Shown here one piece after another: positions 15,402 through 53,290 of a stretch of 53,290 nt of DNA. A program made the translations under genes and the position numbers. This stretch comes from Dehalococcoidia bacterium (GTDB lineage Bacteria; Chloroflexota; Dehalococcoidia; Bin125), in contig JAJEBU010000020.1 in assembly GCA_022822375.1 (NCBI GenBank), positions 1 through 53,290 on the forward strand. Reading direction: 5' to 3'. Within the stretch, counting starts at the first letter, position 1; the number at the start of each line of letters is the position of its first letter. The notes below the pieces were generated by a model. It was not told the origin of the DNA and did no database searches. It worked only from the letters and a program-made list of their open reading frames with translations.

Positions 15402-16556
15402 ATGCACTTTCAACTGCCCGCCGACCTCGATGACCTGCAGACTCGGCTGCTCGACTTCGTCGCCGAGCAGATCGACCCCATCACCGAAGGCGTCGACCCC
15501 GAGGCTCCGCCCGCCGAACTGCGCCGACAGATCGCCGCTCGCTCCGAAGCAGCCGGCTTCTATCGTCTGACGGTGCCTCAATCCGATGGAGGGTTGGGCG
15601 GAGACCCGCGTCTGCTGACCGCCGCCCGCGAGGCGCTGGCCCTCAGCGGCAACCCGCTGGCCGCGCGCGCGCTCGGCTCGGGACCCGGCATCATGCGCCT
15701 CGCCGACAACGACCAACAGCGTGACGACCTCTACCTGCCCGTCATCCGCGGCGAGCGCTCCGCCGCCTTTGCCTTCACCGAAGCGATCCGCGCCGACGGC
15801 AGCCAGCAGCCGACCCAAGCCGTCCGCGCGACCCTGCCCGACGGCGCAGACGGGTTCCTCCTGACCGGCGCCAAAGGATTCGTCACCGGCGGGGCATCGT
15901 CCGATTGGCTGGTCGTCGTCGCCAACGTGCCCGATGAAGGCACCGCGCTGCTCGTCGTCGACCGGGCCGCGCCCGGCGTCACCGCCGGCGAGCTGGGCGC
16001 TTCCATCGACGGCAGCACGCATTCCCCCTTCTACTTCGACGCGGTCGCCGTTCCACAATCGCGGCTGCTCGGCAATGTCGGCGACGGACTCCCGCGCGCC
16101 ATGCAGAACATCGACCGCATGCGACTCAGTGTCGCCGCCGAGTGCGTCGGCTGGACTCGCTGGGTCACGCGGACCACGCTCGAACGCATCGAAGGACCGC
16201 ACCGCAGCGGCGCCCCGCTCGCCGATCAGCAGCAAGTCCAGGCCATCTTCGCCGACATGGCCGCCGACAGCTTCGCCGCTCGCACCACCCTCTATCAGGC
16301 CGCCAACGCACGCGAGGCCGACGACACCACCGCCGGCACACAGGTCGCCGCCGCCAAGTGGCTCGCATCCGAAACCTTGCACCGCACCGTCGACCGCGCC
16401 ATCCAGCTGCACGGAGCGCAGTCCCTGCTGCGCGGACACCCCCTCGAGCGCCTCTACCGCTGGAGCCGATCGCTCAGAATCGCCGAAGGCCCAACCGAGC
16501 TCCTCCGCCTCACCGTGGCCCGACACATCCGACAGAACGGCGTCGACGCGCTCTAG
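15402..16556 (+). CDS. Acyl-CoA dehydrogenase family protein
   Basis: FAFTEAIRADGSQQPTQAVRATLPDGADGFLLTGAKGFVTGGASSDWLVVVA; C-terminal LHGAQSLLRGHPLERLYRWSRSLRIAEGPTELLRLTVAR. Confidence 0.9.
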   Translation: MHFQLPADLDDLQTRLLDFVAEQIDPITEGVDPEAPPAELRRQIAARSEAAGFYRLTVPQSDGGLGGDPRLLTAAREALALSGNPLAARALGSGPGIMRLADNDQQRDDLYLPVIRGERSAAFAFTEAIRADGSQQPTQAVRATLPDGADGFLLTGAKGFVTGGASSDWLVVVANVPDEGTALLVVDRAAPGVTAGELGASIDGSTHSPFYFDAVAVPQSRLLGNVGDGLPRAMQNIDRMRLSVAAECVGWTRWVTRTTLERIEGPHRSGAPLADQQQVQAIFADMAADSFAARTTLYQAANAREADDTTAGTQVAAAKWLASETLHRTVDRAIQLHGAQSLLRGHPLERLYRWSRSLRIAEGPTELLRLTVARHIRQNGVDAL

Positions 16557-16578
16557 CTAATCTAATCGTGATGTTGAA

Positions 16579-16968
16579 GTGGAGCGCACCGTGACCACGG
16601 CAGACCAGGTTGAGGTGGAAGACTACGCGAGTCAGGCGCGAGAGTTCCTGCGCCGCTCGCGAGCGTACCTCGCCGAGGGCGACCTGCATCAGGCATCCGA
16701 GAAAGGCTGGGGCGCCGCCGCCCACATGGCCAAGGCAGTCGCCGCCGCCAACGGCTGGACCTACGAGAGGCATGCTGACTTCTCCCAGGTCCTCGGCAGC
16801 GTCTGGCTCCAGAATCGAGACGACCGTATCCGCAGGTTGGGCGCTGTCGCCAACGAGCTTCATGGCTACTTCTACCTGCGCAGGCGATTCCTCGACGCCG
16901 ACATCATCGCCGCCGATATCGAAGACGTCGCCGATCTGCTCGACCTCCTCGAACCACTGACCGTCTAG
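16579..16968 (+). CDS. PaREP1/HEPN-like protein, copy 1 of tandem pair
   Basis: 129 aa; EKGWGAAAHMAKAVAAANGW...RRLGAVANELHGYFYLRRRF. Confidence 0.7.
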   Translation: MERTVTTADQVEVEDYASQAREFLRRSRAYLAEGDLHQASEKGWGAAAHMAKAVAAANGWTYERHADFSQVLGSVWLQNRDDRIRRLGAVANELHGYFYLRRRFLDADIIAADIEDVADLLDLLEPLTV

Positions 16969-17006
16969 CGTCAATGCGCTCTAGCTAAGCTAATCGTGAC
17001 GTTGAC

Positions 17007-17396
17007 ATGGAGGGCACCGTGACCACGGCAGACCCGGTTGAGGTAGAAGACTACGCGAGTCAGGCGAGAGAGTTCCTGCGCCGCTCGCGAGCGTACCTCG
17101 CCGCGGGCGACCTGCATCAGGCATCCGAGAAAGGCTGGGGCGCCGCCGCTCACATGGCCAAGGCAGTCGCCGCCGCCAACGGCTGGGAGTACGACAAACA
17201 CCGCGACTTCAGCCACGTGCTGATCAACGCATGGGAACTCACAGGAAACGACGCCATTCTGCCATTGCGGGCGATCGCCAATGAGCTGCACAGCAACTAC
17301 TACCGTCGCTCGCGTTATCTCAATGCACGGGCCATCGTCGCCGACATTGAGCACGTCGCCGATCTGCTCGACCTGCTCGAACCACTGACCGTCTAG
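17007..17396 (+). CDS. PaREP1/HEPN-like protein, copy 2 of tandem pair
   Basis: 129 aa, near-identical N- and C-terminal parts to 16579-16968; LRAIANELHSNYYRRSRYL. Confidence 0.7.
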   Translation: MEGTVTTADPVEVEDYASQAREFLRRSRAYLAAGDLHQASEKGWGAAAHMAKAVAAANGWEYDKHRDFSHVLINAWELTGNDAILPLRAIANELHSNYYRRSRYLNARAIVADIEHVADLLDLLEPLTV

Positions 17397-45716: not shown

Positions 45717-46277
45717 TTGTCCCGCCGCCCTGTCTGGGTCACACTTTGCGCACAGACCCCATCCGCCGAAAGCAGCAGAGGTAACGACATCACCAATCAC
45801 GTAAACCCATCGGTCAACGTCCCCGCCGCGCTGGCCGAAATCTCCGCCGACATGTCCAGCCTGCTCGACCGCTGCCGCGACGACCAACTCGCCGTGCGCC
45901 TCAGTCACACCGAGTGGTCCGTCCGCGAGATTCTGTTGCACACCATCCACTCCGAGCGCTGGCTGCACCCTCAGCTCCTGCTCCTCCGCCGCGAAGTCGC
46001 CCCGCACCTCCCGGTCCCCAACGTCGGCGGCGTCACACTGCCCGACACCGACGCCCAGCCCAGTCTGCCCGAGCTGCGATGGGCGCTGACCAGCGTCCGA
46101 GACGACACCAACCGCCTGCTCGACGGCCTCAGTCCAGAGCTGCTGAAGGAGCCGGGCAATCTGGAACTGGACGGCGAAATCCTCGACATGTCGCTCAGAA
46201 CCATCGCGCTCACCATCGCCGACCACCAACTCTTCCACATCCGCCAAATCCAGCGAACCCTCGGCCTAGCCCCCTAG
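45717..46277 (+). CDS. DinB family protein
   Basis: LSHTEWSVREILLHTIHSERWLHPQLLLL...IADHQLFHIRQIQRTLGL; exact start uncertain. Confidence 0.7.
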   Translation: MSRRPVWVTLCAQTPSAESSRGNDITNHVNPSVNVPAALAEISADMSSLLDRCRDDQLAVRLSHTEWSVREILLHTIHSERWLHPQLLLLRREVAPHLPVPNVGGVTLPDTDAQPSLPELRWALTSVRDDTNRLLDGLSPELLKEPGNLELDGEILDMSLRTIALTIADHQLFHIRQIQRTLGLAP

Positions 46278-46290
46278 TTCAGTCCCATTC

Positions 46291-46347
46291 TATGCTTCAC
46301 GCAGGGACCCGCTCGGCTTCCACGCCCTGCTTCACGCAGGGACCCGT
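46291..46347. repeat. Two units of a short GC-rich repeat (TTCACGCAGGGACCCG core)
   Basis: tgcttcacgcagggacccgctcggc at 46293; hairpin CCCTGC-TTCAC-GCAGGG at 46325-46341. Confidence 0.85.
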
Positions 46348-46413
46348 CCCATTCCCTCCGCTTCTGGGGCAGGCTAGGTGGGGGTTCGCCTCCCTCCACA
46401 ACCGCCCCACCCA

Positions 46414-49400
46414 TCAGGCCGCCAGACGCAGCGCCCCGTGTAACTCGATCCGCCTCAGGAACCACAGAAACGCGCCCAGATTCAACACAAACAGCGCCAC
46501 CAACGCACCAAACAACACCCCCACCCCCGGCCAGTCGATGATGAACGCCAACGGAGGCACCACGTCGCGTCCGTCCGGAGTCAACGCGAAGAAATCCAGC
46601 AGAATCGCGCCGGCCTGCGTTCCGACGATCAGCCCCGCGCCCAGACCAATCCCGATCACCATCAACTGCTCAATGGCGATCAAGCCCAGAATCTGACGCA
46701 TCGACATGCCGACGCTCTGACACACCGCAAACTCCACCCGCCTCGCCTGCGCCGTCACCGCCGTCAAGACCACCAACCCAAACGCAGAGGCGATCGCCAC
46801 CGCCGCCACCGCACCGACAAACACGCCGTTCCAAGACGCAACGATCAGCGGATCCGCCGCCAGCTCTGCGCGGGCCGACGCAATCGTCACGATTCGCCCG
46901 TCGTCCAACGCCAGCTCATGCTCCTCCACCAGCGAGGACCAGCGCTCGAGCGGCGCGTCAACCCATAGCTCATCGTCGACCGCCAGCGCGACGCCGGCCG
47001 CCGCGCTGCCGTAGAGCCGCTCGACGAGCGTCGCCCGATCGATCAGCACCAGCGGCTCGTCACGCTGCGGATCGTAGCTGGGAAACGTCTCGAACTCGCC
47101 CGCGACCACGAATGTCATCGGCGTCGGACCAACGCGAATGCGCACCATCTCGCCCACCTTCAGACGCCCCTGAGCCATCGCCTCGGCCGAGAGCAGCGCC
47201 GACATCGGCTGGCGCTCTGCGGCATAACGAACACCACGCAGCGATGCCGGCGTCTCGTTCCACCGATACCGCGCGCCCCCGTCGCCCCCGTCGCCGGCGT
47301 CCAACGAGTCGAACGCCGGCTCTCCGACCGCAAGCGGCATCGCCTCCCAGTCCCCAGAGTCGAACTCGGCCAGTGTGTGTACACCCACTGAGTCGCGGTA
47401 CGTCAGGTCGCGCAAGATGATCTCACCCGCGGCCCGCGTCGCCGCCGCGTCCAACGAGACCAGCGTCAGCGGCAGGCGCGGACGCTCCACAACGCCAGGA
47501 CGCCACGCGCTCCGCGACTGCACGATTCGAGCCCCCTCCAGCGGCAAGTACACATCAGGCGTTCCGGCCAACCGCGTGGACAACACCGCTGCCACGGGCG
47601 CGGAGCCCGATACCTGTTCCGCATACGGTTCCAGCGTCCCGATGCTGTACCACCAATATCGCCCGACTGCGTCGAGCACCTTGATCCCGACGGTCGTCTG
47701 CTCGCGAATCTCGATCGGCGTCAGGCGAAGCTCCAACACACCGCCGAATCGGTCAATCACCGCGCCTGCAGACTGCGACGCCGCCGGCGCCAGCGACTCC
47801 AGCAGCGACGGCCGCAGCGCCCACCCCACATCGCGCTCGCGCAACTGCGAAGCGATCTCCGCCGCGTCGACCGCGCCCAGTTGCAGACGCCCTGAGTCTT
47901 CGTCGCCGTCGAACGCGCCCGTGATCCGTTGAACGCGCGCGACACTGCCGTGGCCCACTTCCGCAATCCGCTCGAACGGAATCTGCTCCGCGTGCGGCTC
48001 CGTCAGCCGCACCTCCGCGCCCACGGCATGCAGCGCCCGGTCGTCGTACGACGCCTCAAGCGTCGTCCGGAACGACGCGGCGAACACCGCCAGCGCGCCA
48101 GCGATGGTCAACAGCAGCACCGTCCGCGCGTAGTGCGTCGGCGTGCGGCCCAGATACCACGCGCCCAACAGCAGCGTCAGCGATCGCAGCGGCGACGCCG
48201 CCCGCGCCAACCCGCGCATCGCCGGCGGGAACAGCCGCAGCACGATCAAGCCAACCACGAACAGCAGCACCGTCGGCGTCGCCACCGCCAACCAATCCAG
48301 CCGCGTCTCGCCCACCAGCGGCGAGTCAATCGGGTCGCCCGCCCATTGCAGCTCGAAGATCAGCAACGCGCCAAGCGCCGCCACTGCAGCGTCGATCAAC
48401 GCCCGCTGCGTCCACGACGCCGGCGGCCGGCCCCGCTCCCGCCGAGTCGTGACCATCGTCTGACGCGTCGCCCGGTACGTCGGCACCGCTTGCGCCAGCA
48501 ACGCCAGTGCGCCCGCCCCGAGCGCCAGATACCACGACTCCGCCGGCAACGACACCGCCAGCAACGGCCCGCCGCCCGTCAGCAGCAACGCCTCGTCGAA
48601 CGGCGGCACCAGCCCCAACAGGCTGACCAGACCCAACCCGATCAGCGGACCCAGCGCGACCGCCGGCGCCGTCAGGATCGCCGCCTCCACCAGGTGCAGC
48701 AGGGCCACGTCACGCTGACGAGCACCGCGCGAGCGCAGCCACGCCGTGTCCTCCGTGCGCTGTTCCGCCAACATCGCCGACGCCACAATCGCGTACACCA
48801 ACACCGCGCCAACCAACTGCAGCACGATCATGAGCAGCGTCGACTGCGCAAACTGGAATCGACGACTGAAGTCCGCCAGCGTGTCGACGAGCTCCGTTTC
48901 CTGCTGGACCCCATCGAGCGACTGCGCAATCCGCCGCGTCATCTGCGCCAGCGCCTCCGACGCCTCCGACGCCTCAGCCGCCGATGCGCCGCTCAAGTCC
49001 GTGCGGAAGCGCTGCAGCAACGTCAGCCGCAGCGTCGGCGACTGGTCCGCCAAGACGCCCAACACGCTTGACCGGTCGGTCCAGAAACGCAACTCCGTAT
49101 CCCGAGCCGCAATCGGCAGATACACCGGATCGAGCGTCGACCATGCCCGCTCCGAACCCGGCGGCGTCACGATGCCCACAATCCGCACCCGAGTCTCGTG
49201 CTGCTGCCCCAACCAAAACGGCTGAGCCCAGAGCTCATCGCCGATCTGCAATCCGAACGCCTCAGCCTGACCCGTCTCAACCACCACTTCCACCGCGCCG
49301 TCGACCACAGTCGGCAGTCGACCGTCGCGCAGTTCCCCCGCTTCCGCCAGATCGTCCTGCACCGCAAACGTCGCATGATCAGCGTCGCCAACGCCGTACG

Positions 49401-49782
49401 GCTGATCGTCGCTGCGCAGGACATAGCCTCCTGTCCGCAGCGACACCATCCGCCCCACGATCAGGCTGTCCGCTGCCTTGACCGCTTCCTCCAGGATCAA
49501 CGACTCCACTTCCGCGACCGAGTCTGCATCCGCTGTCACGTTGCTGCGAATGAAGCGCAGGTCGAGCGAAGCCGGCTCCGCATCCGCCAACGTCTGGCGC
49601 AGGCCGAGCTGGCGGACGGCTTCGATAAACGTCGGCGCACTCGACGCCAACCCCACGGCCAACAGCGCACCGATCAGCAACACCGCCGACAACCGTGGCG
49701 CCGACAGAATCCGTCGGATCGCCAGACGGGCAAGCTCGCCCGCTGTCTCGCCGCGACCTGCATCGGGACGTTGGGCCGCCAT
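46414..49782 (-). CDS. FtsX/MacB-type ABC transporter permease, large
   Basis: 1122 aa; N-terminal TM, large extracytoplasmic domain, multi-TM FtsX-like segments (LVGAVLVYAIVASAMLAEQRTEDTAWLRSRGARQRDV; VVLTAVTAQARRVEFAVCQSVGMSMRQI). Confidence 0.82.
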   Translation of the reverse strand: MAAQRPDAGRGETAGELARLAIRRILSAPRLSAVLLIGALLAVGLASSAPTFIEAVRQLGLRQTLADAEPASLDLRFIRSNVTADADSVAEVESLILEEAVKAADSLIVGRMVSLRTGGYVLRSDDQPYGVGDADHATFAVQDDLAEAGELRDGRLPTVVDGAVEVVVETGQAEAFGLQIGDELWAQPFWLGQQHETRVRIVGIVTPPGSERAWSTLDPVYLPIAARDTELRFWTDRSSVLGVLADQSPTLRLTLLQRFRTDLSGASAAEASEASEALAQMTRRIAQSLDGVQQETELVDTLADFSRRFQFAQSTLLMIVLQLVGAVLVYAIVASAMLAEQRTEDTAWLRSRGARQRDVALLHLVEAAILTAPAVALGPLIGLGLVSLLGLVPPFDEALLLTGGGPLLAVSLPAESWYLALGAGALALLAQAVPTYRATRQTMVTTRRERGRPPASWTQRALIDAAVAALGALLIFELQWAGDPIDSPLVGETRLDWLAVATPTVLLFVVGLIVLRLFPPAMRGLARAASPLRSLTLLLGAWYLGRTPTHYARTVLLLTIAGALAVFAASFRTTLEASYDDRALHAVGAEVRLTEPHAEQIPFERIAEVGHGSVARVQRITGAFDGDEDSGRLQLGAVDAAEIASQLRERDVGWALRPSLLESLAPAASQSAGAVIDRFGGVLELRLTPIEIREQTTVGIKVLDAVGRYWWYSIGTLEPYAEQVSGSAPVAAVLSTRLAGTPDVYLPLEGARIVQSRSAWRPGVVERPRLPLTLVSLDAAATRAAGEIILRDLTYRDSVGVHTLAEFDSGDWEAMPLAVGEPAFDSLDAGDGGDGGARYRWNETPASLRGVRYAAERQPMSALLSAEAMAQGRLKVGEMVRIRVGPTPMTFVVAGEFETFPSYDPQRDEPLVLIDRATLVERLYGSAAAGVALAVDDELWVDAPLERWSSLVEEHELALDDGRIVTIASARAELAADPLIVASWNGVFVGAVAAVAIASAFGLVVLTAVTAQARRVEFAVCQSVGMSMRQILGLIAIEQLMVIGIGLGAGLIVGTQAGAILLDFFALTPDGRDVVPPLAFIIDWPGVGVLFGALVALFVLNLGAFLWFLRRIELHGALRLAA

Positions 49783-52700
49783 CAGTCCGCGCCCTCTCGG
49801 AGCAGCGGCGCGGCGTCACGACCAGTCGCCCAACGCGCAATCGCAGTCGTCCCGAGAATCGCGCATGCCGCAATCACGCCGATCCCCACACCAGCCAGCA
49901 CCCAATCCACCGACAGCGACGTCGGCGGCGCCGCCGCAACGCCCTCCGCCGTGACATCGAGAAATGCCAACAGCGCACCGGCAACCGCTCGTCCCAGCGC
50001 AACCCCCAGCGCGACGCCAGCAGCCAACACCAGCCCCACCTCCACCGCGGCCTGACCCGTCAACCCCCCGCGTCCCGCGCCCACAGTGCGCATCAGCGCG
50101 AACTCCCGTGCCCGCTCGCCGCCGGCCGCCGCCATCGTGAAGATCAATGCCGCCGAACCCACCACCAACAGGCCGATGAAGCCCACCACAAACAGCGCCG
50201 CCGCCCCGCCCGATCGGAACGGGTCTGACTCTGCCTGCGCGATCTGCGCCTCTGCGTCGAGCACCGTCGAGGACAGATACACCTCATCCATCAGCTCGTT
50301 GGCAGCCAGCCGAGCCTCGTCCGACGCAGCAGCCGCCCAGACCTCCGTGATCGGCAGCACCGCCTGCGCGGATGCCACCAACGACGCGCTGCGCAACGCT
50401 CGAAAGTCCGCAACCAGGAAACCGCCCTGGGCCGGATTCAGCGTCGGCACGTAGTCCACCACCGCCGCGATCCGCACCGGAATGCTCGCGTTGTTTAGCT
50501 CAATCGACACCTCGTCGCCCAGCGCGAGATCGGCCGCCGCCAGCGATCGCCGATCCAACGCCGCGTTGACCGGCAGGTTCGGCGACTCCCGCACGATGAT
50601 CCGCTCATCGCTCGCCGCCAGCTGCGCCCAGCGATACTCCAGCGCGCCGTCAGTGAACACGATCCGATCCTCGCCAGCTCCGCTCGACGCTGGAATCCAC
50701 GGCCCGTCCGAGTCAAATGCATCGACCGTCACCGACGCACCAGCGACGACCGCGCTCAGGTCGGAGATGTACAGCGTTCCCGTGGGCGCGCGCACCACGC
50801 GCGCCTGCGGGCGCATGATGATCGCCGCAATCCGCAGTGGTTGTGCCAGACCGCTCAGCGGTGCTCGCATCGTGACCGACGCATCGGTCACGATCGACGC
50901 CGTGCTCGTCCGAAACTGACGCATCTGTACGTGCCCGTTGGCGTCCAGCACGCGCGCCGCGATCTCCAGATTGCTGTTGCCCGGCTCGCTCCGCACATTG
51001 ATGGTCAGCGCCTCCGATCCCGCAGGCAGCTCCTGTCCCACGCGGCCCGGCTCCCGCGCGATCGCCGACAACAACGCCTCCGACGGCATCCCCAACAAGT
51101 CCGCGTCCAGCGTCGTGATCTGGTCCAGGCGATCAGTCTCCAGACCCAGCATCACCACACGCGATCCCGAACGGTCGCCGCCGATAGAGCCGATCCCTCG
51201 GTAGGCCGCTGCCGCGTCGATGCCTGGACGGCTGCGCAACGGCTCTGTCACCCGCGCCATCGTCGACACGCCCAAGTTCCCGCTGATCGACACGCCCCGA
51301 ACGTCGCTGCCGACCTCGTATTCGATCCGCTCCCGCTCGACGCTGCGAATCGTCGATGCATACGTCGCGGAGATCAGCCCGACCGCCGTCACAAACGCCG
51401 TCAACGCCGTCAGCAGCATCGGACCAGTCGGATTGCGCGACACCGTCAGCACGCCCAGATAGACCGCCGAGGGCATCGGCGCGCGCGACAGCAGCGACGC
51501 CAGGAATCCCCACACACGCGGCGCGACCCGCATAATCGTCAGCGCCGATCCCAGCAGCAACAACCCTGGGCTGAGCATCAGCACCGGATTGATCCCGCCC
51601 GACTCCACCGCCGACAGCGCGCCGCCCGATGCTTCACTCTCGAACTGCAGAAACAGCACCGCCGCCAATGCCAGCAGCGCGACATCCAGCCACGCGCGCT
51701 GCACCAACGATTGTCGCTGCGGGCGACCCGCCGCAACCCGCTGGTTCTGACGCTGACGCGCGTCGAACCAGGCCGGTGCCGCAAACGCCGCCCACGCAAT
51801 CGCCGCCCCGGCCACCGCCAGCGCCCACGCTTCCCAGGTCAGACGCGTCGCAAACGGCTCACCGCCAGAGACTCGCGCCACAGCCTCGAGCCGTCCTGAA
51901 TGGCTCAACGCAAACGCCGCCAGCGGCGCACCCAGCACAGCCGCCGGGACGGCCGCGATCCCGCCCAGCACCGCCTGCGCCCCCGCCTGCTGCCACGGAC
52001 GAGCCCCGCGAGCCGCCAGCCGCTCACGATCCACCCGCGTCCGCTGCGCCATCACCCGTCCCACGAGCGCCACCCCGAACATCGCCACCGCCGCGATCTG
52101 CAAGCCCGCCAACAGCGACTGTCCCGCCGAAAACTGCGCCTCACGCTCGAACTCCTGCAAGACCCCCAGCAGCAGCGTCGACGCCGCGCCGCCCTCCAAT
52201 CGGTTCGACTGCTGACGCCACGCCGTCAGGCCCTCGACGACTTCGCTGACGTCATCTGAGTTCAGCACCGACGACGCCAGCTCGGTTCGCATCCGATGCA
52301 TCACAGGCTCACCAAACGCCGCCAGCGCCTCATCGCTCACCGCGAGTCCGAAGTACGGCACCTCCGCGCCGCCCGGCGTCACGTAGAACTGCAAGTCGAA
52401 CCAGATATCCGTGTAGTGAAACGCCAGCACCCTCGACACCTGCGCCGCCGCCGGCTCGACCACCCCAGTGATCGTGAACCGCCGATCATCGCTGAATGCA
52501 ATCACCGTCCCGACGTCGATGCGCAAGCGCTCGGCCAGCGCTGCGCCAATGACCGCCTCGTCCAACGCCTCCGCCCACTCGCCACGCAGCAGCCGCGCGT
52601 GCACGTCCAGCTGCTCGAACGACATCAGGTACGCCAGCAGCGACTCCTGCACCTCATGGCCGATCCGCGTGAACTCCGTGAAGCTGCGCGGCGACTCCAT

Positions 52701-53027
52701 AATCCGTCGCGTCTCGCCCTCGAACCCGACGAACCGCGACAGCTGCTCCGAACGGATCTCCCCCGCCGACCTGGACACCGCGTCGAACTCCGCAACGTCT
52801 GGCAGCTGTCTGCTGCGCTGGAAATCGGCAAACGCTGCGCCGCGCGGTGACTGTGCGATCAACTCGCGAAGCGCCAAATCCGCCGTTGCCGCTCGGAAGA
52901 CCAGCGGCAACGCCACCAGCGACGCGGCAATCACCAGCAGCGCCGACGCGCTGATCATCAACAGCCAGCCGCCGCGCAACTCCCGCAGCGCCGCCAATCG
53001 GAGTAGCCGAAGCAAACCCAGCATCAC
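49782..53027 (-). CDS. FtsX/MacB-type ABC transporter permease, large
   Basis: 1081 aa; same architecture (GSAALIFTMAAAGGERAREFALMRTVGAGRGGLTGQAAVEV); overlaps the next permease start. Confidence 0.82.
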   Translation of the reverse strand: MMLGLLRLLRLAALRELRGGWLLMISASALLVIAASLVALPLVFRAATADLALRELIAQSPRGAAFADFQRSRQLPDVAEFDAVSRSAGEIRSEQLSRFVGFEGETRRIMESPRSFTEFTRIGHEVQESLLAYLMSFEQLDVHARLLRGEWAEALDEAVIGAALAERLRIDVGTVIAFSDDRRFTITGVVEPAAAQVSRVLAFHYTDIWFDLQFYVTPGGAEVPYFGLAVSDEALAAFGEPVMHRMRTELASSVLNSDDVSEVVEGLTAWRQQSNRLEGGAASTLLLGVLQEFEREAQFSAGQSLLAGLQIAAVAMFGVALVGRVMAQRTRVDRERLAARGARPWQQAGAQAVLGGIAAVPAAVLGAPLAAFALSHSGRLEAVARVSGGEPFATRLTWEAWALAVAGAAIAWAAFAAPAWFDARQRQNQRVAAGRPQRQSLVQRAWLDVALLALAAVLFLQFESEASGGALSAVESGGINPVLMLSPGLLLLGSALTIMRVAPRVWGFLASLLSRAPMPSAVYLGVLTVSRNPTGPMLLTALTAFVTAVGLISATYASTIRSVERERIEYEVGSDVRGVSISGNLGVSTMARVTEPLRSRPGIDAAAAYRGIGSIGGDRSGSRVVMLGLETDRLDQITTLDADLLGMPSEALLSAIAREPGRVGQELPAGSEALTINVRSEPGNSNLEIAARVLDANGHVQMRQFRTSTASIVTDASVTMRAPLSGLAQPLRIAAIIMRPQARVVRAPTGTLYISDLSAVVAGASVTVDAFDSDGPWIPASSGAGEDRIVFTDGALEYRWAQLAASDERIIVRESPNLPVNAALDRRSLAAADLALGDEVSIELNNASIPVRIAAVVDYVPTLNPAQGGFLVADFRALRSASLVASAQAVLPITEVWAAAASDEARLAANELMDEVYLSSTVLDAEAQIAQAESDPFRSGGAAALFVVGFIGLLVVGSAALIFTMAAAGGERAREFALMRTVGAGRGGLTGQAAVEVGLVLAAGVALGVALGRAVAGALLAFLDVTAEGVAAAPPTSLSVDWVLAGVGIGVIAACAILGTTAIARWATGRDAAPLLREGAD

Positions 53028-53075
53028 CCAATGCTACGCCCGCCCACCCCCAGTCCCCGCGTCACAACTCCCAGT

Positions 53076-53290
53076 CCCAGCTTCATGCAGGGACCCGCTC
53101 GGCTCCCAGTCCCTGCTTCACGCAGGGACCCGCTCGGCTCCCCAACTGCCGTGTCCCCGTGCCCCGACACGGGGACCCCTGCATGAAGCAGGGGATGGAA
53201 GAGAGAGGCGCAGCAACCCGCTCGGTTCCCGTTCCCTGCGTCACGCAGGGACCCGCTCGGTGCCCCGCAAGCCGAGCTGACCCCTGCATG
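53076..53290. repeat. Cluster of the same short hairpin repeats (four copies plus one truncated by the window end)
   Basis: CCCAGCTTCATGCAGGG 53076-53092; CCCTGCTTCACGCAGGG 53111-53127; CCCCTGCATGAAGCAGGGG 53176-53194 (inverted); CCCTGCGTCACGCAGGG 53234-53250; cccctgcatg at 53281-53290. Confidence 0.9.

Follow-up and report, generated by a model that had tools for sequence, protein, structure and literature searches.

Repeats beside the FtsX-like permease genes

The window, by which we mean the whole stretch of 53,290 nucleotides analysed here, is the entire contig C95 of a 2.72-Mb genome in 158 contigs. Near its right end, a DinB_2 gene (45717..46277, + strand; PF12867) lies convergent with an FtsX-like permease gene (46414..49782, - strand; PF02687), and a second FtsX-like permease gene (49782..53027, - strand; PF02687) has its start facing an array of short hairpin repeats. 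An earlier note on this DNA had placed such repeats on both sides of an FtsX pair, and the PF02687 matches of both ORFs bear this out. The recurrence itself is real: a search of the window for CCCTGCTTCAYGCAGGG that allowed at most 3 mismatches returned 11 strand-matches, where shuffles predict 0.37. R1, a covariance model based on 35 units, places five clear hairpin units and one weak unit within 46285-46352 and 53071-53261.

The DinB_2 gene ends just 5′ of the first two units. One of them (46285..46317, + strand; R1 46.3 bits) begins 7 nt past the stop codon and has a damaged left stem arm (CTATGC). The other (46320..46352, + strand; R1 24.8 bits, E 0.001) is weak, with a degenerate 3′ tail and the exact core CCCTGCTTCACGCAGGG at 46325.

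The array behind the second permease gene starts with a unit carrying one stem mismatch, CCCAGC (53071..53103, + strand; R1 52.0 bits), and a consensus copy (53106..53138, + strand; R1 57.9 bits). A spacer (53145..53176, no strand; read from the sequence) contains a second palindrome, GTGTCCCCGTGCCCCGACACGGGGAC, which is also found between units elsewhere in the window's genome. It runs into an inverted unit of variant B, CCATCCCCTGCTTCATGCAGGGG (53169..53198, - strand; R1 30.7 bits). Further on lie a truncated unit, read from the sequence, of which the AACCCGCTCGG tail is the only remnant (53208..53225, + strand), and a unit with the loop GTCAC (53229..53261, + strand; R1 47.5 bits). The last unit, again an inverted variant B read from the sequence, is cut at the contig end (approximately 53265..53290, - strand). 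Together with the unit at 53229-53261, it makes up an A/B inverted doublet, a whole version of which stands at C19:188-262. Synteny with a relative places contig C19 of the window's genome next, and this contig carries about 430 nt more of the array, which therefore does run past the window end, as had been supposed. Elsewhere in the window, a direct duplication of 300 nt (16540-17267, 83% identical) lies inside the adjacent similar ORFs 16579-16968 and 17007-17396.

The hairpin unit and its distribution

The unit is CCCAGTCCCYGC-TTCAY-GCRGGGACCCGCTC, 31 nt long, with an 8-bp stem and a 5-nt loop. One unit per locus from 78 loci of relatives yields the consensus CCCAGTCCCYGCTTCAYGCRGGGACCCGCTC, whose conservation has sharp edges at both ends. 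In this layout, an unpaired CCCA precedes the stem GTCCCYGC/GCRGGGAC, which encloses the loop TTCAY, and an unpaired CCGCTC follows. The earlier note had described a unit of about 33 bp; its recurrence holds, but its boundaries do not, and the phrase given there is a circular permutation of the unit, because 'CTCCCAGT' forms the 5′ flank of the unit after it. The 5-nt loop was read correctly and the stem, put at 6-7 bp, was read too short; its arms, described as perfect or near-perfect, are damaged in the window copies at 46285 and 53071. The variant B unit, CCATCCCCTGCTTCATGCAGGGGTCAGCTCGG, is often paired with the A unit in the window's genome.

As DNA, the unit has a predicted fold of -9.2 kcal/mol (z -3.6). 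An intrinsic terminator would have a GC hairpin and then a T run; the 3′ flank of the unit consensus is CCGCTC and then C-rich. Rfam covariance models matched a tRNA only in the window and nothing in the array contigs, in line with the view that this is not a named family. At 31 nt, the unit has the size of a REP (a palindrome of 20-40 nt) and, like one, occurs in many near-identical copies.

An exhaustive search of the window's genome found 58 pattern matches with up to 2 mismatches and none for a reversed control. The covariance-model survey covered 20 genomes: 15 from one genus of uncultured Chloroflexota, and five that represent four further genera of its family. R1 has 91 matches in the window's genome and 81, 0, 5, 31, 119, 71, 23, 13, 7, 38, 39, 7, 4 and 36 in the other 14 of the genus, the high counts being lower bounds because the best 150 candidates per genome were scored. 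Units are thus present in 14 of the 15 genus genomes, from 0 to about 119 in each, and G002 is the genome without any. Had the motif been confined to two sites, it could have been dismissed as a local duplication; this count shows otherwise. In the five genomes from the other genera, R1 had no match.

When the exact pattern was scanned over 84,980 species, the matches were MAGs titled Dehalococcoidia or Chloroflexi, together with one contig filed under Gammaproteobacteria. Isolate names suggest a marine-sponge origin for these MAGs. The odd contig (JAJEAD010000004.1, locus L049; 3.2 kb) is probably misbinned, because it shares 98.4% identity with contig C82 in the window's genome; it comes from a separate assembly and has the same array. 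The only indels between the two are three of 1-2 nt, and no movement of a unit is seen there. Among 2.9 million viral contigs the exact pattern found no match, which leaves carriage by phages unsupported. We consider it likely that the units are a genus-specific, REP-like family of 31-nt non-autonomous hairpin repeats, and the REP/MITE-like reading of the earlier note fits.

Placement behind genes and stem covariation

Gene calls came from an ORF caller based on codon usage that was written for the analysis. By these calls, only 3 of 135 units from relatives fall inside genes, compared with 78% of random positions, so the units are extragenic, as the earlier note had it. They occupy 20 convergent and 13 divergent gaps, versus 7 and 33 among unit-free gaps (p 2e-4), at loci that were picked for carrying units, so these frequencies are not genome-wide. 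In gaps between tandem genes, the median relative position of units is 0.15, where 0 is the stop codon (p 2e-6), and the typical distance from stop codon to unit start is 3-10 nt. This is the preference for gene 3′ ends and for tandem or convergent gaps known from REPs. The first unit past a stop codon is in sense at 80 of 99 sites, and at 42 of 60 when mixed-orientation clusters are set aside and single and direct units are kept (p 0.003); part of the sense bias arises because doublets point their CCAG ends outward. At one locus (L034:4709-4885, contig C63), tandem units with a 36-nt period run in frame through the C-terminal extension of an MFS transporter gene, and the in-frame repeat is GSPVPASRREPL.

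The stem arms change together, as the earlier note had noticed in places. In the seed set of 35 sequences, four pairs vary on both sides, with 15 cells versus 4.7 in shuffles. Among 135 hits from relatives, five of the eight pairs do so, with 45 cells versus 8.4 in shuffles, a comparison that leans toward structure because the alignment was fitted to the model. The changes are linked to species: at pair 9-19 (model positions), every G001 and G014 unit and almost every G005 unit has C-G, and almost every G000 unit has T-A; pair 6-22 is T-A in 6 of 16 G010 units. At one orthologous intergenic site common to G010, G007 and G004, C-G has become T-A in situ in G010.

Such a pattern raises the question of whether the unit is a functional structured element, selected at gene ends as an mRNA 3′-end hairpin, stopping exonucleases or promoting termination, or as a protein-binding DNA hairpin, with mobility secondary or ancient. 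The sense placement a few nucleotides past stop codons speaks for it, as do the compensatory changes, including that in G010 relative to G007 and G004, and one gene end that has kept its unit in three species despite diverged downstream flanks. However, close relatives differ in copy number, from 0 to about 119, the unit-free G002 is 88% complete, many unit sites are lineage-specific and no T run follows the hairpin. The paired changes could come from hairpin selection, but also from homogenisation by the resident family through gene conversion. We therefore hold this explanation to be possible, though on balance improbable. A scheme that joins function to the REP-like family, namely a third REP-like tag class (CCCA...CCGCTC) inserted by a non-RAYT enzyme in an oriented manner behind stop codons and kept across species as mRNA 3′-end hairpins, seems doubtful to us.

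Doublets, arrays and relation to known repeats

In G001, units form clean inverted doublets of 101-104 bp with their CCAG ends outward, and some doublets occur in G014. The G001 doublet has a 30-bp terminal inverted repeat and folds as a single hairpin with a 30-bp stem (as DNA, predicted -42 kcal/mol, z -10). At G001 loci L191-L199, L201 and L202, many doublets lie inside a larger MITE-like element whose outer inverted repeats are AGGRTGTCTCAGAAGTC.

The hairpin unit might accordingly be the terminal or subterminal repeat of a classical MITE, having terminal inverted repeats and mobilised by a DDE transposase. In G001, about half of the 103-bp doublets lie within the larger element, with its outer repeats and apparent target duplications of about 8 bp. 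These duplications fit the outer element only, though, and the outer repeats are seen in G001 alone; doublet L192, with a 98% identical interior, is without them, and in G000, G004, G005, G010 and G014 the units stand alone. A classical MITE is thus quite unlikely, and the outer element probably carries the hairpin doublet as cargo.

In the window's genome, most units belong to direct or mixed arrays rather than clean doublets. Neighbouring units there are direct (29), inverted (19) or diverging (5), and other short palindromes stand between paired A and B units. CRISPR was ruled out because in the arrays units of 35-38 nt follow one another directly, with no unique spacers between them. For nine array-bearing contigs of this genome (C95, which is the window, C19, C53, C63, C82, C110, C112, C124 and C152), all orthologs fall in one stretch of about 250 kb in G010 (C4:147-398 kb), and the picture is the same in G007 (C15:448-714 kb). 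Most arrays of this genome therefore share one region, whereas copies are dispersed in G001, G005, G010 and G014. Contig C48 is placed elsewhere (G010 C2), and C10 and C99 have no placement. Local duplication alone could produce such direct and mixed arrays. That purely local tandem duplication or an assembly artefact made the repeats of the window is extremely improbable: arrays do lie at contig ends in a genome of 158 contigs, and one relative's site has Ns and G runs, but units occur in independent assemblies of 14 genomes, several on contigs above 100 kb, and the 98.4% identical contig of another assembly has the same array.

Sites differ among relatives. A G011 contig is collinear with the window plus C19, and the array locus measures 128 nt in G011 versus at least 750 nt in the window's genome; two other intergenic sites have units in G011 and none in the window. 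The gap between the DinB and FtsX genes is 23 nt in G002 versus 143 nt in the window, and most other species have an additional gene there. Several unit sites are common to two or three species; the family is therefore in part old, and its movement may be old as well. We saw no transposition event, excision product or unit-specific target-site duplication.

The earlier note had pointed to a RAYT/Y1-type transposase as a possible partner, an expectation that our search did not support. No Y1 transposase was found in the window's genome. The 15 genus genomes together have one, a RAYT-like gene with 59 bits versus the curated cut-off of 80 bits (NF047646), and its 3.2-kb locus contains no hairpin unit; nowhere was a RAYT found adjoining a unit.

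Returning to the REP-like family, we infer mobility, and any role that the units may have in RNA. On the basis of their REPIN anatomy only, the doublets may have been dispersed in trans by a hairpin-recognising enzyme, since lost or unrecognised. Insertions would survive mainly just past stop codons, where the hairpin may be tolerated or useful at the mRNA 3′ end. In the window's genome, single insertions could later have grown into mixed arrays through local duplication and recombination.

REP families are known mainly from Proteobacteria. GTAG-tagged REPs and REPINs with RAYT (PMC3116915) are likewise short intergenic palindromes in clusters, and the hairpin doublets, like REPINs, are inverted and can fold either as one long hairpin or as two small ones. 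In contrast to them, the unit has no GTAG tag at its palindrome end, its conserved ends being CCCA and CCGCTC/GAGCGG, and 14 of the 15 genomes are without a RAYT, the sole weak one being unflanked by units. The GTAG-23 REPs of T. roseum, also of the Chloroflexi, are described as GTAG-tagged (PMC3733652). Most like the hairpin family, as a working likeness, are the CGTC-tagged REPs, which include the dRS3 and RPE repeats (Di Nocera et al. 2013, PMC3733652). The likeness covers the 8-9-bp stem with a 4-5-nt loop, short unpaired ends (a 3-nt CCA-like tail), inverted dimers, placement past gene ends and the want of a dedicated transposase. The unit consensus differs from them in having no CGTC tag (nor TGTC or CCTC), in its unpaired ends (CCCA and CCGCTC, or GAGCGG on the other strand) and in its stem sequence, and the window's genome has many long arrays, direct and mixed. 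Untagged REP-like families in other species are mentioned in the same paper (Di Nocera et al. 2013, PMC3733652). The mosaic arrays, with units alternating with other short modules, resemble the BIMEs of enterobacteria, whose units themselves differ. The family is new and belongs to neither the GTAG nor the CGTC tagged class.

The hairpin family has clear limits: among the sampled genomes it occurs in a single genus, its copy number is very uneven among species, and it occupies both shared and lineage-specific sites. It could therefore serve as a test case for the way in which RAYT-less REPs spread and for a possible role of such repeats at mRNA 3′ ends. The arrays may also account for assembly breaks of the window's genome at array loci.

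Other repeats accompany the units in relatives. A second hairpin family, CTCTCCCCCCGC-n-GCGGGGGGAGATGYCG..AGAGGGGGG, is frequently found next to units in G004, G010, G011 and G014 (L046, L063, L172, L144, L229 and others), with G004 and G014 sharing it at one orthologous site. In G005 arrays, a third palindrome, GATGCCCCGTGCTTGACACGGGGCCCAGAGC, alternates with units at a period of about 150-210 nt (L088-L091, L132-L139).
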